Shown one piece after another: positions 18,590 to 28,442 of a stretch of DNA of 32,498 nucleotides (the first letter of the stretch is position 1; every line of letters begins with the position of its first letter). Below the pieces are notes generated by a model. That model saw only the letters and a list, made by a program, of their open reading frames with translations. It did no database searches and was not told the DNA's origin. Made by a program: the position numbers and the translations under genes. The DNA lies in contig MNYC01000019.1 in NCBI GenBank assembly GCA_001872945.1, positions 1-32,498 on the forward strand, read 5' to 3'. Origin of the DNA: a bacterium CG2_30_37_16. Its GTDB lineage: Bacteria > Patescibacteriota > CPR2.

Positions 18590-19126
18590 ATGGGAATCAA
18601 CCTTCTTCCAAACCAGGAAGTTGTAACCGAAAACAAAAATACAAATTTCTTAGCAATTATGATTGTTTTGTCAACATGCTTAATTGTTTTAGGTATTTTT
18701 GGAACAAGATATTTAATAAATAGTCTTAAGATTAAGAAACTCAATTCCAATATCGCTTCAGCAGATCAAAACATCTCCGATCTTCAAGTATATATAGACA
18801 GCTATGATACTTATAAGAGTAATGACATTACTAAAGCTTTACAAAGCCGGAAGCTTATTTCGCCTATTTTGGATGCAGCTGAAAAGAAATCTCCAAGTTA
18901 CATAAAAATAACGAAAATAGAAATCATCAAAGATGGTGCTTTAGTTCTTAATGGTGAAGCAAAAAACGATAACAACCAAGGGTTCACCAATATGACTAAA
19001 TTTATAAATTTATTGGAATCCGAAGCCGGAATGAGTGTTTCGAAAATTAATAACCCACGTGCTACAGACCAAACGATTATTTTTAGCGTCGAACTAAAGG
19101 GCACACCGAAAGAGATAAAAAAATAA
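18590..19126 (+). CDS. pilN: Type IV pilus PilN-like assembly protein
   Basis: MGINLLPNQE start, single TM, coiled coil, position before PilO-like gene. Confidence 0.75.
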   Translation: MGINLLPNQEVVTENKNTNFLAIMIVLSTCLIVLGIFGTRYLINSLKIKKLNSNIASADQNISDLQVYIDSYDTYKSNDITKALQSRKLISPILDAAEKKSPSYIKITKIEIIKDGALVLNGEAKNDNNQGFTNMTKFINLLESEAGMSVSKINNPRATDQTIIFSVELKGTPKEIKK

Positions 19127-19689
19127 TGCTATTAGAACAAGGTCAACGACCAAAAAAAATAAGAAAACCAATCGGCATACCGGCCTTCATTTTTTGCTTA
19201 GTGCTAATTGCGTCATTATGTTACTTTATAAACACAAAGATTAAAGGACAAAACCAGACTATCAACAACAACATTAAAACACTAGCAGAAAAAAAGGAAA
19301 CAACCGAAGAATTTGAAAATCTAAAACAAATCTGGCCAACATTACCCAAAGACATCGATATATTGAAAAAAACAAATGATAATCTTGCTCTTAAAAAAGC
19401 AGATCAAAAACAAATAATTGCCGAGATTGAAAGGACAGCAGTCGAAGCCAAACTTATTTTAAAAGAAATTAAAATTGATATAACCAAAGGTAAGGTTTAC
19501 CAATCAACGCTTACCGGAAAATACGAAGATATTAAAACATTTATCAAAAAAGCCGAAAATAATAATCTTGTATTAACTATGAACATTTTTAGAATTGAAC
19601 CAAAAAAGGACGAAAACCATGCACATCTAGAAGACGAGATGGACATGAATTTTTATCTTGAAATTAGCGCTTTTGGAGACAAAAAATGA
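19126..19689 (+). CDS. pilO: Type IV pilus PilO-like assembly protein
   Basis: N-terminal TM, coiled coil, ferredoxin-like C-terminal half (STLTGKYEDIKTFIKKAENNNLVLTMNIFRIEP); overlaps pilN stop. Confidence 0.7.
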   Translation: MLLEQGQRPKKIRKPIGIPAFIFCLVLIASLCYFINTKIKGQNQTINNNIKTLAEKKETTEEFENLKQIWPTLPKDIDILKKTNDNLALKKADQKQIIAEIERTAVEAKLILKEIKIDITKGKVYQSTLTGKYEDIKTFIKKAENNNLVLTMNIFRIEPKKDENHAHLEDEMDMNFYLEISAFGDKK

Positions 19690-19977: not shown

Positions 19978-21186
19978 ATGCCAACTTATGACATTCAAGC
20001 TAAAAATAATCAAGGAAAAATTATTTCCGGTAAGATTCTTGCATCCTCCGAGGAAGAGGCTTACCGAAAAATGGTTAAATCCGGCCTAATACCGAAATCT
20101 ATTATTGAAATTCCGGAAGCTTTTGATATAAAAAAATTTTTAAATCAATATTCCAGAATAAGTCTTAAGGCTCTTATGTTTTTTTCCAAGCAGCTTTCAT
20201 CAATGGTTGGTGCCGGTCTTCCGATAGCAAGATGCTTGGAAACTCTTGCTGAAGAAGAAGAAAATGAGAATTTTGCAAGGATAATAAAAGCTGTTTCAGC
20301 AGAAATACAGAGCGGCATCGCTTTTAATGAAGCTTTAAGCAAATATCCCAAGGTTTTTCCAAAAATATACATTAAGGGCGTAAAAGCCGGTGAAGCGGCC
20401 GGCGAGCTTGATAAAATTCTGGGGAAACTTTCTACTCAATTAGAAAATGATTACGAAACAATCTCCAGAATTAGAAGTGCTATGATGTATCCCATTTTTG
20501 TGTTGGTAATCCTTGTTGCGGTTGGCGTTGCTTTGCTTACTTGGGTTATTCCACAAATAAAAGGAATTTTTGTTGATACCGGAATGGTTCTTCCCCTTCC
20601 TACACGGCTATTAATCGGCTTGAGCGATGCTATAATCCACTACGGCTTAATAATGCTAGGCGGTTTAGTTGGAGCTCTTTTTGGTTTCAAATATTATATT
20701 AATACGGAACAAGGTAGATTTTTATGGGACAGTTTTAAGTTAAAAATCCCTGTTTTAGGAAAATTATTTCAAAAAGTATATATGGATAGGTTTACCGGCA
20801 CCCTCGGAACTCTCCTTGCGGCAGGATTACCGATATTAGAAGCAATCGAGATTACCGGCGAAGCAATAGGCAACAAAAAATACCAGTCATTTTTAATGAA
20901 TGCTAGGGAAGTGGTTAAAGATGGCACGCCGCTTTCAGTTCCGGTTAAGGAAAGTAAGTTATTTCCACGAATGGTTTCACAAATGCTAGTTGTGGGCGAA
21001 GAAACCGGCAAAACCGATGAATCTCTCGATGAATTAGAGAAATTTTATCACCGAGAAGTAGAAATAATAGTAAAAAGCATTTCTTCTTTAATTGAGCCTG
21101 TCTTAATCCTTATAATCGGCTTAGCCGTATCCGCTTTAATTGCTTCCATCATTTGGCCAATATATAATTTAACCAATTCGTTATAG
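19978..21186 (+). CDS. pilC: Type IV pilus inner-membrane platform protein (PilC/GspF)
   Basis: FFSKQLSSMVGAGLPIARCLETLAEE, GVKAGEAAGELDKIL, VVGEETGKTDESLDELEKFYHREVE. Confidence 0.96.
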   Translation: MPTYDIQAKNNQGKIISGKILASSEEEAYRKMVKSGLIPKSIIEIPEAFDIKKFLNQYSRISLKALMFFSKQLSSMVGAGLPIARCLETLAEEEENENFARIIKAVSAEIQSGIAFNEALSKYPKVFPKIYIKGVKAGEAAGELDKILGKLSTQLENDYETISRIRSAMMYPIFVLVILVAVGVALLTWVIPQIKGIFVDTGMVLPLPTRLLIGLSDAIIHYGLIMLGGLVGALFGFKYYINTEQGRFLWDSFKLKIPVLGKLFQKVYMDRFTGTLGTLLAAGLPILEAIEITGEAIGNKKYQSFLMNAREVVKDGTPLSVPVKESKLFPRMVSQMLVVGEETGKTDESLDELEKFYHREVEIIVKSISSLIEPVLILIIGLAVSALIASIIWPIYNLTNSL

Positions 21187-21188
21187 AT

Positions 21189-21782
21189 ATGAATAAGATA
21201 TATTTCTTTTCAAACCGGCAAAAAGGCATGTCCTTAATTGAAATGATCGCGGTTATAGCTATTATTGGGATTTTATCAAGCGTTTCAGTAGTCGGCTATA
21301 AAAGTTTAAGTAAAAGAAATAGGATAACTATTGCAACGGAAGAGATAAGATCTGCACTTATCGAAACCCAAAATCTTGCCATGGCTCCAAATAATCCCGC
21401 AAATTCAAAAAGTTACGGAGCCTATTTTAAGAAATCATCTGATGACTATTACATTTTTAAAGACACTAATAACAACAGAAACTACGATTCCGGAGAAGAA
21501 ATTAAAAAAAACACGCTAAAAAACTATAGAGTCAAAATAGATAAAATTTCCGGGAACGGGGAAAGTAATGAAGTATCGGTCATTTTTAATATACCAAAAG
21601 AAAACAACTACGAAATTTATAATAAAGATATTTTTTTCAATCCTATCGGTACCGCAAACGGTAAGGGCAGTGTAGCTGCCGGCAAAGAAGGAAACGGTTC
21701 AATTGAAATATTATCGGAAGATGGATCCCAAACCAAAACCGTAACTATCAATTGTTATTCAGGGTTAATAAGCACAAAGTAA
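21189..21782 (+). CDS. FimT/FimU/GspH-like minor prepilin
   Basis: KG^MSLIEMIAVIAIIGILSSVSVVGYKSL prepilin signature. Confidence 0.85.
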   Translation: MNKIYFFSNRQKGMSLIEMIAVIAIIGILSSVSVVGYKSLSKRNRITIATEEIRSALIETQNLAMAPNNPANSKSYGAYFKKSSDDYYIFKDTNNNRNYDSGEEIKKNTLKNYRVKIDKISGNGESNEVSVIFNIPKENNYEIYNKDIFFNPIGTANGKGSVAAGKEGNGSIEILSEDGSQTKTVTINCYSGLISTK

Positions 21783-21786
21783 AATA

Positions 21787-22302
21787 ATGAAATATAAAAT
21801 TCGAAAAATAAATAGCAGCGGTTTCGGCCTTTTAGAAGTTATAGTTGCCTTAGGAATTATTATTACTGTTGAGGTGTCAATATTAAGCTTAAGTGCCTCC
21901 AGCATTAAGCTGGGAACTTTAAGCCGCCAAAGGACTCAGGCCACGGAAATTGCCAGACAAGGACTGGAAGTTGTTAGGAATATCAGAGATTCCAATTGGG
22001 CTTCTGGTGTCTTATGGAATAATTCTTTCACTACAGATGATTGGTATAAAATAAAATTTAACGATGTTAGCGCGACTAACAAATACTGGGAATTAATCAA
22101 GGTCGTTTCCCCTACTCCTAGGGAAGAAACAATAACAATTGATGGGGTTAACTTTACAAGGGAAATCGAAATAAAGAATAAGACGGCAAAGTTTGATGAC
22201 ACCACAGATATCGATTATGCTGACGTTAAGGTAATAATAAAATGGGGAAATACAAATACCAAAAAAATCGAAATAACCGAGTATTTAACTAATTGGAAAT
22301 AA
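21787..22302 (+). CDS. PilV/GspI-like minor prepilin
   Basis: SG^FGLLEVIVALGIIITVEVSILSLSASS ... ATEIARQGLEVVRNIRDSNW. Confidence 0.85.
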   Translation: MKYKIRKINSSGFGLLEVIVALGIIITVEVSILSLSASSIKLGTLSRQRTQATEIARQGLEVVRNIRDSNWASGVLWNNSFTTDDWYKIKFNDVSATNKYWELIKVVSPTPREETITIDGVNFTREIEIKNKTAKFDDTTDIDYADVKVIIKWGNTNTKKIEITEYLTNWK

Positions 22303-22304
22303 AA

Positions 22305-23783
22305 ATGTTAAAAAAACACAAAACTTTTACAATAAATAATTACGGATTTACATTAGTAGAGATGGTTGTATCTGTTTCAATTTTTGCAACAGTTGTCCTA
22401 ATTGCTTGTACCACTTTCATTAAAGTCTTACACGCCCAACAAAAGACTAATGCCCAAAGAAAAGTAATTCAGGAAGGACGATATTTGCTAGATTCAATTG
22501 CCAGAGAAATAAATTTATCCCAAGGATCAGGAACAGATAAACCGTGGGTACTTAGAAAAGATGATGGTACGATAAGCATTGATGGTACCGGGAGTCAATT
22601 AGATATTATATCAGCGACACCGGATTATAGTAACCCAACAGGATCAACCAAAAATAGCAATAAAACTTATAAGCTTTCAAGTAATGGGACAAACAATACG
22701 ATCGAATTCTCTGAAAACAACAATAATACGGTCGCCTCAACCGAAAGAAGCTATTTAGATATTGTTCTTATTTTTGATCTTTCTAGAAGCATGACTTATG
22801 GCGATGCTTCAGGTACTACCACCAGATACGAAGCCGCTAAAGAAGCCGCTAAAAATTTTCTCGACACTTTGGACCCGGTTTATGACCGATCTTCTTTAGT
22901 AACTTTTGCCGGCAATGGTACTTATAATTTTACTAAAGTCAGGTCACAATTAACCGATACCATTGGTACTACACGCCAGAAAGTTAATGATATAAAATCA
23001 GATCGGGAGTTTTTTTCGGGCCCTCATTATGCCAATGTTGGTTGGAACGGATGCGAAACATTATATCCTTGCATTTTTGGCAGCACTCCCATCGAACATG
23101 GACTTAGTTTAGCCAATAGTCTGCTCCAAGACTCTAATGTACCTCCAAGATTAGATGCCAGCGGAAACATTGTTTTAGATAATGACGGAAATCCGGTCAC
23201 AACAAAGAGAATAGAAATTTTACTTACCGATGGTTCGGCTAACCGATTAGAAAATGGCACTTGGTGCGATAGAAACGATCCTCCATATGGCGCTGATGGA
23301 ACAACAGTGGTAAACAAATGCAAGGCTTATGCAATTATGCATGCTAATGAAGGCAGAACAAATTTTGATTTAAAAATGTTTACAATACGTTTTGGATCCA
23401 CCGCTGTCGGGGGATCCGACGAGCAAACCTTACGCCAAATTGCAGGATCAAGTGACCTAACAACTCCTGTCAATCCCGGAGACTGCCTAAATAATTACTG
23501 TAATGCTCCAGGAGCAGACGACCTTGAAAATGTGTATCAAAACATCGAAAATGTTATTAAAAATTATACCGATACCCCAATAATTTCAACCCCAAATTCG
23601 AATATTACATCAGATACCGTCAATATTGGAAGCCTCAAATTTACTGAAGGCGCTAATTCTGGCGTCCCATTCCTAAATATCTCCATAACACTAATAGTTG
23701 ATAATGGAGGAAGTAAAAAATCAAAAATTACCTTGGAAACTACCGTTACCTCAAGGGCTTATGAACAATTCTTACATTTATAA
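22305..23783 (+). CDS. PilW-like minor prepilin with inserted von Willebrand factor A domain
   Basis: YG^FTLVEMVVSVSIFATVVLIACTTFIKV prepilin N-terminus; VWA MIDAS pieces DLSRS, GSTPIEHGL, LLTDGSAN; C-terminal SDTVNIGSLKFTE...ITLETTVTSR returns to a PilW-like pilin end. Confidence 0.9.
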   Translation: MLKKHKTFTINNYGFTLVEMVVSVSIFATVVLIACTTFIKVLHAQQKTNAQRKVIQEGRYLLDSIAREINLSQGSGTDKPWVLRKDDGTISIDGTGSQLDIISATPDYSNPTGSTKNSNKTYKLSSNGTNNTIEFSENNNNTVASTERSYLDIVLIFDLSRSMTYGDASGTTTRYEAAKEAAKNFLDTLDPVYDRSSLVTFAGNGTYNFTKVRSQLTDTIGTTRQKVNDIKSDREFFSGPHYANVGWNGCETLYPCIFGSTPIEHGLSLANSLLQDSNVPPRLDASGNIVLDNDGNPVTTKRIEILLTDGSANRLENGTWCDRNDPPYGADGTTVVNKCKAYAIMHANEGRTNFDLKMFTIRFGSTAVGGSDEQTLRQIAGSSDLTTPVNPGDCLNNYCNAPGADDLENVYQNIENVIKNYTDTPIISTPNSNITSDTVNIGSLKFTEGANSGVPFLNISITLIVDNGGSKKSKITLETTVTSRAYEQFLHL

Positions 23784-23795
23784 TCAGAGGTCAAA

Positions 23796-24191
23796 ATGAA
23801 AAAAATAAAATCACAACTAAATAACGGCTCGGCATTACTCATAGTTATAATTATTGTAATGACGGTTAGCGTGGCAGCACCCAGCATGAGTACAATGATA
23901 CTTGCCGAATACAGGATGTCTAGAGCCTCAAGAGATTCCTTACAGGCATACTATGGTGCCGAATCGGCAACTGAAGTTGGACTGGCCCTAGCAAAGCTCG
24001 GCGCAATTGGAGCGCTACCATCGCCGGAAATCCAATTTCATGGCAGTGGAGAAATAAGCGGAATGACTACTAAATTTCAAGTAAGTTCCGGCCCGAGTAG
24101 CACAATTATAAGGGTAACGGGTAAATCCACTGTTAATAGTAGCAAAACAGAAAGAACGCTGGAGTTTGAAAGGGACACAACGGCATTCTGA
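23796..24191 (+). CDS. PilX/GspK-like minor pilin
   Basis: NG^SALLIVIIIVMTVSVAAPSMSTMILAEYRMSRASRDSLQAYYGAESATEVGLA; hydrophobic prepilin-like N-terminus without Glu5. Confidence 0.75.
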   Translation: MKKIKSQLNNGSALLIVIIIVMTVSVAAPSMSTMILAEYRMSRASRDSLQAYYGAESATEVGLALAKLGAIGALPSPEIQFHGSGEISGMTTKFQVSSGPSSTIIRVTGKSTVNSSKTERTLEFERDTTAF

Positions 24192-26156: not shown

Positions 26157-26768
26157 TTAACTTAAACTAAATTCAGTTAACTTTTCTTTTATTTTCTCGT
26201 CTTCCACTGCAAACTCGGGCATAAAAATCACTTCTTCTGAATGGTCAATATCTTCATGATAGGCAAGTTGAACCCGAAAATTTTTCTCATTAAACTCATT
26301 GCCATAAATTTGTTTTCCTTTTTTAGAAATCTGGGAAACGGAAAAGTGAGTACTTAAAATAAAATACAAATCTACGTAATCTTTCCATTTTGCTCTACGG
26401 CCAAGAGCGTAAGCTTTCATTGCTGCCAAAGTTAAAAGATCAGGCATTTTTATAGAACTATCAACTTTTACGGAAAAATGGATTGGGAAAGGATAATATA
26501 AAAATGTTAATCGAACACCATTAATAATAAGTTCATATTGGTCTTTTTCGTCTCTTATAACTTGGTTGATTTGGCCTTTCCCCGCAAGGATATTTCTAAT
26601 CTTTTCATTCTCAAAAGGTTTGTTAGAAAACAAATCAAAGTCTATTGATTGTCTATGACCAATCTGAAGTGCAATTGCCGTACCGCCAACCAGACCAAAA
26701 TCCTTTGAAAATACGGCAATGAGTGGCAAAAGGCTTTCTTGACTACTTGTAAGTATTTCCTTATGCAT
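26157..26768 (-). CDS. Nucleotidyltransferase AbiEii/AbiGii toxin family protein
   Basis: FGLVGGTAIALQIGHRQSIDFDLFSN and LLTLAAMKAYALGRRAKWKDYVDLYFIL. Confidence 0.88.
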   Translation of the reverse strand: MHKEILTSSQESLLPLIAVFSKDFGLVGGTAIALQIGHRQSIDFDLFSNKPFENEKIRNILAGKGQINQVIRDEKDQYELIINGVRLTFLYYPFPIHFSVKVDSSIKMPDLLTLAAMKAYALGRRAKWKDYVDLYFILSTHFSVSQISKKGKQIYGNEFNEKNFRVQLAYHEDIDHSEEVIFMPEFAVEDEKIKEKLTEFSLS

Positions 26769-27018
26769 GTTGCTTGAAAAAGAGTTTAAAATAATGTTTT
26801 ATCTTCGGGTCAAAATTATTTCTCTGAGACTCAATTTTTTTAAAAAATATCTGGGCTACTTTTGGGCAGCCAAGAATTTTAATCAGTTCCTGCACATCCT
26901 CGTAGTCACCATATTCCAAAATTCCCTCGACGATAGCTTCATTTGAAAGATGACTATAATTTTTGGTTGACCAAAAAAGATAGGGCCTTTTGGATGCAAA
27001 ATTTTGTAACGTTGTCAT
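26761..27018 (-). CDS. Cognate antitoxin-like small protein (DUF6922-like)
   Basis: 85 aa, overlaps the AbiEii gene by 8 nt; YLFWSTKNYSHLSNEAIVEGILEYGDYEDVQELIKILG resembles small partners commonly found 5' of such toxins. Confidence 0.65.
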   Translation of the reverse strand: MTTLQNFASKRPYLFWSTKNYSHLSNEAIVEGILEYGDYEDVQELIKILGCPKVAQIFFKKIESQRNNFDPKIKHYFKLFFKQHA

Positions 27019-27659: not shown

Positions 27660-28442
27660 CTACTCCAAGGCTTTTTGGAAAATATCTGTTACATTAGTCA
27701 AAAAGTTCATTGTTTGTGTAGGTATTTTTTCAGTTTTTTCAGCAGCTTTTGTGAAGAAATTAAATATGTCGAAAACCGGTTTATACTGACTGGGCACCAG
27801 CCCAATCTCTTCTAGTCCAGTTCCCCTATGAGAGTTTATATATCCCGCCGAAGGATCTTCGTCTGTTGTCGCATCTGAAGGATCATAATAGTTCTTTTTT
27901 ATATCGTCTATGGTTCTGGGCCAATAGTCTGCGGCAAGCCTTACTTTTCGAATTTCTAAATGCAAATGAGGAGCATAGCGGTTACCCGCCCCTTTGCCTA
28001 TCGTGCCAATTTGCGTTTTCTTATAAATTTCCTGCCCTTTTTCTACGGAAATGATGTTTAGATGCGCATACATTGACCAGCACATAGTGCCGTCTAAATT
28101 CGTATGTTCAATTTGAACTATATTGCCCCACACCGGATACCAACCGGCATCAATCACTGTGCCTGAAGCAACAGCATAAACGGGATCATTAAAATCATCG
28201 CCCGGACTTCGGTTCCAGTCCTCACCCGGATGTCCGGGCCAAACGCCTCCGTATTTTAGATATTCCTTACTTAATCTGTCACCGGCATTAATAACATAAA
28301 CCCTTGCTCCGGCCGGTTGTCCGCTATGCCCTAACGGATAAACATAGCCATCAGCGTATAATACTGCCCAAGCATTTTCCACGAAACTTCCCATAAATAT
28401 CACCGTCAAAATAATCAAAACTAAAAGACACCGATTCCGCAC
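27660..28442 (-). CDS. Secreted M23 (LytM-like) metallopeptidase
   Basis: Signal peptide; HPGEDW, VYAVASGTVIDAGWY, GNIVQIEHTN, HLHLEIRK. Confidence 0.9.
   Translation of the reverse strand: MRNRCLLVLIILTVIFMGSFVENAWAVLYADGYVYPLGHSGQPAGARVYVINAGDRLSKEYLKYGGVWPGHPGEDWNRSPGDDFNDPVYAVASGTVIDAGWYPVWGNIVQIEHTNLDGTMCWSMYAHLNIISVEKGQEIYKKTQIGTIGKGAGNRYAPHLHLEIRKVRLAADYWPRTIDDIKKNYYDPSDATTDEDPSAGYINSHRGTGLEEIGLVPSQYKPVFDIFNFFTKAAEKTEKIPTQTMNFLTNVTDIFQKALE

Follow-up and report, generated by a model that had tools for sequence, protein, structure and literature searches.

The gene at positions 22305-23783 combines a prepilin N-terminus and a von Willebrand A (VWA) domain in a single chain, and it poses the question of how the domain is accommodated by the pilin and what it may be used for there. 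The window analysed, 32,498 nucleotides long, corresponds to one entire contig (G000:C53) of an 896-kb genome which is 97.75% complete and distributed over 61 contigs; the members of the same phylum with which it was compared have genomes of mostly 0.5-1.5 Mb, so that its source is most likely a patescibacterium (CPR). The features of the locus are compiled in Table 1.

Table 1. Pilus-related features of the window and the matches on which their assignment is based.
Feature	Position	Strand	Basis
PilN-like	18590..19126	+	position and INLLP motif; no significant Pfam match
PilO-like (weak)	19126..19689	+	PilO 0.01, below cut-off; position
PilC-type inner-membrane platform protein	19978..21186	+	T2SSF 6.4e-58
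FimT/GspH-like (H) minor prepilin	21189..21782	+	N_methyl 3.4e-7; ComGD 1.7e-7 and GspH 8e-5, both below cut-off
PilV/GspI-like (I) minor prepilin	21787..22302	+	GspI 7e-5 and PilV 0.004, below cut-off; GFGLLEV prepilin motif
Modular J-type (PilW-like) minor prepilin with nested VWA, 492 aa	22305..23783	+	ORF listing, Pfam, PilW-like HMM
Prepilin leader to G14; predicted cut before F15; E19 = mature Glu5	22305..22346	+	sequence; N_methyl
Pilin module, N-terminal part (alpha1 and first beta strands, residues 14-148)	22344..22748	+	PilW-like HMM 2e-22 (14-134)
VWA domain, residues 151-424	22755..23576	+	Pfam VWA_2, VWA; profile against VWA structures
MIDAS codons	D158/S160/S162 22776-22790; T261 23085-23087; D309 23229-23231	+	residue positions
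Pilin module, C-terminal part, residues 427-486	23583..23762	+	PilW-like HMM 3.6e-5, separate domain
PilX/GspK-like (K) minor prepilin, without Glu5	23796..24191	+	PilX_N 4.8e-6, above cut-off; GSALLIV N-terminus

The frame of 492 residues extends from an ATG at 22305 to the stop at 23783, and an alternative TTG 12 nt upstream would lead to 496 residues. A class III (prepilin) signal is present at residues 11-34 (Pfam N_methyl, E-value 1.4e-5), and the VWA domain is recognised by Pfam VWA_2 at residues 153-238 (6e-7) as well as by Pfam VWA (1.5e-5), all of these matches being above the curated cut-offs. The MIDAS is complete, with D158-x-S160-x-S162 forming the DxSxS motif and T261 and D309 providing the Thr and Asp ligands. 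Hence, the prepilin N-terminus and the fully equipped VWA domain which a previous sequence-only reading of this DNA had described are both confirmed. The same reading had counted six cysteines within or beside the VWA domain; these are Cys250, 256, 321, 339, 394 and 399, the seventh of the protein, Cys35, being located in the membrane helix. Compared with solved VWA structures, a profile derived from the three nested cases dealt with below finds 4rck as its best match (5e-13), and Mfa5 and integrin alpha-M too. AlphaFold2, run on the single sequence, returned an unreliable model with a pLDDT of 35 and a pTM of 0.20, from which no fold was taken.

Within its operon the gene is the third of four in the order H-I-J-K (FimT-like, PilV-like, VWA pilin, PilX_N-like), and the Pfam and NCBIfam matches follow one another as expected for the FimT-PilV-PilW(VWA)-PilX cassette that had been proposed. 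Minor pilins of the H/I/J/K type cap type IV filaments, K being devoid of Glu5, and as a set they presumably start filament formation (PMC8179133, PMC9934059, PMC10191384). The designation PilW/GspJ (J) is taken from the gene order, and the label "PilW-like" is additionally backed by a hidden Markov model (HMM) of relatives. To this extent the label stands; no curated PilW model of Pfam or NCBIfam, however, matches the protein, and its similarity to GspJ and ComGF is N-terminal and remains below cut-off (GspJ: E-value 4.3e-4, 20.2 bits versus 64.85). The genome encodes three PilB-type ATPases, one PilT-type ATPase and the PilD peptidase, and 14 of its prepilin motifs score above cut-off.

Contig C24 of the same genome harbours a second cassette with a plain PilW-like pilin; its neighbours there are the start of a PilX-like gene and a repeat ORF of 737 aa, which occupy different frames. 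The latter two (L025:5700-8633), a PilX-like N-terminus followed by an out-of-frame ORF of beta-propeller-like repeats, resemble a broken or frame-shifting modular PilX, which could reflect an assembly error or phase variation. On the minus strand of the window itself, two overlapping ORFs (26157-26768 and 26761-27018) have by eye the look of an AbiEii-like nucleotidyltransferase-type toxin-antitoxin pair, and an ORF at 27660-28442, likewise judged by eye, resembles a secreted M23-like peptidase with an HLHLEIR motif.

The placement of the VWA domain was assessed by means of a PilW-like HMM whose training set comprised 16 minor pilins devoid of VWA, taken from relatives and sharing the operon position or the N-terminus; the own genome was excluded, three same-family members were stripped of their C-terminal extensions beforehand, and E-values refer to a search space of 1000. 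This HMM matches the protein twice and in a collinear manner, residues 14-134 corresponding to HMM positions 1-132 (2e-22) and residues 427-486 to positions 114-180 (3.6e-5). Taken alone, the C-terminal part reaches 24.5 bits versus a maximum of 7.3 bits in 2000 shuffles, and the VWA part -0.4 bits. Excision of residues 146-425 raises the score from 92.5 bits for the full chain to 103.1 bits. If an excision of 280 residues is moved along the chain, the best score is obtained for the cut at 148-428; all cuts starting from 104 to 152 lie within 5 bits, however, so that this procedure locates the N-terminal boundary of the insert only approximately. According to the alignment, the insert occupies the turn between a strand ending near residue 140 and a conserved [LI]TSxxVxI.xLxF strand, "ITSDTVNIGSLKF" being the conserved strand which follows the turn that holds the VWA. 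Since two collinear HMM stretches flank the VWA domain, its excision improves the score and the C-terminal part surpasses the shuffles, the domain is, as judged from these sequence comparisons, nested in one turn between beta-strands of the pilin head and not appended to it. Both the return of the chain to the pilin and the insertion between strands had been anticipated by the sequence-only reading. The module is thus found inside the pilin, at residues 151-424, and not behind it by way of a short linker as is usual for modular pilins; nor does it lie C-terminal to a full pilin module as in orthologues of S. sanguinis PilB, as residues 427-486 complete the module after the VWA. The VWA-free paralogue on contig C24 is 33% identical in the N-terminal part, the BLAST alignment of the C-terminal part being weak.

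The nested architecture recurs in other genomes of the phylum. A complete second case of 376 aa with its VWA at the same turn is present in G178, which belongs to a different family; the gene order there is PilC, FimT-like, PilV-like with LamG, PilW-like with internal VWA, PilX-like and major pilin-like. In G030, from a third family, a contig edge retains the end of a VWA pilin which is 35% identical to the G000 protein and is followed by a PilX-like gene retained near pilC/N/O/M genes. The tail behind this VWA matches the PilW-like HMM at 2.1e-6 and the insertion turn is that of G000 and G178; its nesting is deduced from the C-terminal match because the N-terminus lies beyond the contig edge. 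Both G178 and G030 retain the MIDAS Thr and Asp. The nested VWA is seen in two distant lineages and probably in a third. Three of the 380 phylum genomes sampled possess the nested form, which is a lower bound since the first-look search filter can skip members: one search missed the VWA of G000 itself, which another found. The full-chain query mostly returned the shared prepilin N-terminus, and VWA-only and VWA plus C-terminal queries were used instead. Searching 55 genomes from the class to which G178 belongs revealed no further nested case, and the same-family relatives of G178 contained no orthologue for an empty-site comparison. Scanning viral contigs with the nested-VWA profile yielded no relative; a scan of genome contigs yielded a single, uninformative VWA fragment (37%) from Micropruina.

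In at least three further genomes the VWA is apparently situated at the C-terminus of the PilX-like pilin. Pilins of this kind, PilX-like and last in the order of minor pilins, their VWA following the pilin part, are seen at L163:4092-5204, L083:2074-3111, L164:3328-4920 and L097:3592-4809 (G081, G106, G146 and, more weakly and hence only probably, G192), the PilW-like pilin there being plain. The VWAs of G081 and G192 are under the Pfam cut-offs; that of G081 matches the nested-VWA profile at 1.5e-19. A tree of the VWA domains groups G000 and G030 with a membrane VWA protein (85/86) and G081 with G106 (99/99), G178 being placed elsewhere with no resolved position, and is consistent with one or several insertions. 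The close relatives G001 and G002 carry Fib_succ_major on PilW and RCC1-like and LamG modules on PilX or PilV. Of their cassettes, in which PilV, PilW and PilX bear these modules, L024 (G001) stems from the same genus and L023 (G002) from the same family; in G002 the cassette is present as a tandem pair, and masked (N) stretches lie in the PilV-like N-termini. An unusual expansion is seen in G370, a small genome of the phylum, where contigs C1, C5, C9, C11, C12, C13, C19 and C22 encode twelve VWA proteins of 1200-1760 aa.

These data bear on two other views of the architecture. The nearest published VWA pilins end with the VWA (PMC8179133, PMC12607857), and the PilX-like VWA pilins of the relatives appear to do the same, which would speak for a simple C-terminal graft after the manner of S. 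sanguinis PilB, with an unrelated tail making up the last 65 residues. This is very improbable, however, as the tail resembles the terminal part of VWA-free pilins with a score above all 2000 shuffles and also follows the VWA in G030; the two-part HMM match and the shuffle test both disfavour it. An assembly or annotation artefact might also have fused the gene of a pilin with that of a VWA protein, as chimeras of this kind occur and the genome is a draft in 61 contigs. Yet the frame is single and unbroken and the same join is present in independent genomes, complete in G178 and, within its contig, in G030. The misassembly which the earlier reading had named as a threat to its interpretation is thereby in practice refuted, its residual probability being close to nil.

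Concerning function, we consider it likely that the protein is a modular J-position minor pilin of a type IV pilus which belongs to the tip complex and whose VWA domain binds a partner cell or surface via the MIDAS metal. After processing by PilD, the N-terminal helix would pack into a four-pilin H-I-J-K tip complex (encoded at 21189-24191), and the VWA, inserted before the "ITSDTVNIGSLKF" strand, would project outward at the pilus tip beside K. With a divalent metal (Mg or Mn) in its MIDAS it would bind a ligand on the partner cell or surface, and retraction of the pilus would then draw the small cell towards the bound partner. Of this picture, the analysis demonstrates the coding frame, the prepilin motif, the VWA with its full MIDAS, the nesting as far as sequence can tell, the operon setting, PilB/PilT/PilD in the genome and the recurrence of the nested form; tip location, metal binding, adhesion and partner are what we infer. 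Adhesion to a partner cell appears to be the likeliest use of the nested VWA because of the analogy with S. sanguinis PilB and TM7x PilX2; in TM7x, host binding falls to about half when pilX2, the gene of an RCC1-propeller pilin, is deleted (PMC12206443). The partner, if there is one, would more probably be another microbe and not an animal. The term "metal-dependent adhesin" may be too simple, since metal proved dispensable for the binding of fibronectin by S. sanguinis PilB in vitro (PMC8179133).

As the main rival to adhesion, the VWA might chiefly act as a mechanosensor or serve in the assembly of the tip complex, passing tension from the tip to the pilus; roles of this kind have been suggested for CpaL and for the PilY1 VWA of P. 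aeruginosa. Nesting tethers the domain at both ends and load could pass through it, its loops contain Cys pairs, and CpaL, a Tad minor pilin of Caulobacter with a vWA, affects surface sensing (PMC12607857). We nevertheless deem this unlikely: a sensing pathway was not identified in this analysis, and a binding role is suggested because relatives carry lectin-like modules on neighbouring pilins of related cassettes. That the cassette forms a type II secretion-like pseudopilus with the VWA engaged in substrate handling is most unlikely. Although type II secretion systems also possess H/I/J/K sets and GspH/I/J are weakly matched here, the PilT-type ATPase and the PilN/PilO-like genes are as expected for type IV pili.

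Reading the protein as an adhesive tip pilin invites comparison with known systems. S. sanguinis PilB is a minor pilin with a MIDAS VWA which was modelled to fit at the tip only and binds host proteins; its VWA, though, follows a complete pilin module C-terminally via a short loop, and it belongs to a PilABC set and not to H/I/J/K (PMC8179133). CpaL/TadG likewise combines a pilin-like domain with a MIDAS VWA in a predicted tip complex with two small pilins, but it is part of the Tad system, is linked to surface sensing, and its C-terminal VWA is itself split by a beta-rich domain (PMC12607857). ComZ of Thermus thermophilus and GspK of the type II secretion system have a module inserted in the pilin sheet and are counted as modular, this module, however, being a beta-solenoid or an alpha-domain and not a VWA (PMC8179133). 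PilX2 of TM7x (Saccharibacteria), an ultrasmall episymbiont, is a minor pilin with an additional binding-type domain needed for normal host binding, but that domain is a C-terminal RCC1 propeller on a PilX pilin and no VWA is present (PMC12206443).

In diderm type IVa pili a MIDAS VWA is displayed by the minor-pilin tip complex as well, there in PilY1/PilC, a distinct protein which is not a pilin and whose C-terminal part is a beta-propeller (PF05567); Pfam finds no such propeller in the protein studied here. The sequence-only reading regarded the tip adhesin as fused into the pilin. As far as a VWA nested in a J-like pilin is concerned, this is borne out; a fusion of PilY1 itself is not supported, given the absent propeller and the tree, in which the VWA groups with VWAs of the same phylum including that of the membrane protein. 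The search for a separate PilY1 or a second VWA in the genome gave no match for either, bearing in mind that the VWA search can miss weak domains and that the PilY1 propeller search lacked a positive control and was also silent in control genomes. For these reasons it is plausible, though not more, that this pilus can dispense with PilY1.

Modular pilins comprise over 1,200 proteins in 264 architectures, with vWA among the 15 commonest and several representatives from candidate phyla (PMC8179133). In the open-access literature we found no report of a J-position pilin with a nested VWA, although that InterPro-based survey may already include relatives among its vWA pilins, their topology unremarked. 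Sticky and modular VWA pilins are known, and so are inserted modules; the combination, a VWA nested in the pilin head, is new. Together with the PilX-like cases it indicates at least two ways in which the VWA reached tip pilins, by nesting in a J-like or by attachment to a K-like pilin. As a tentative and rather doubtful extension, the turn which precedes the final strands in J-position pilins might be a reusable socket into which a VWA was inserted more than once, the tethering at both ends making a force-gated, load-bearing tip adhesin in episymbionts; separate insertions are allowed by the tree because the VWAs of G000 and G030 group with the membrane VWA and that of G178 does not.

How ultrasmall episymbionts recognise and hold their partners is an open question for which pilus tips are a leading candidate. 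The locus contributes a defined protein with a residue-level prediction at the MIDAS Asp158, and it suggests that tip pilins act as interchangeable supports for modules of the VWA, LamG, RCC1-like and Fib_succ types.
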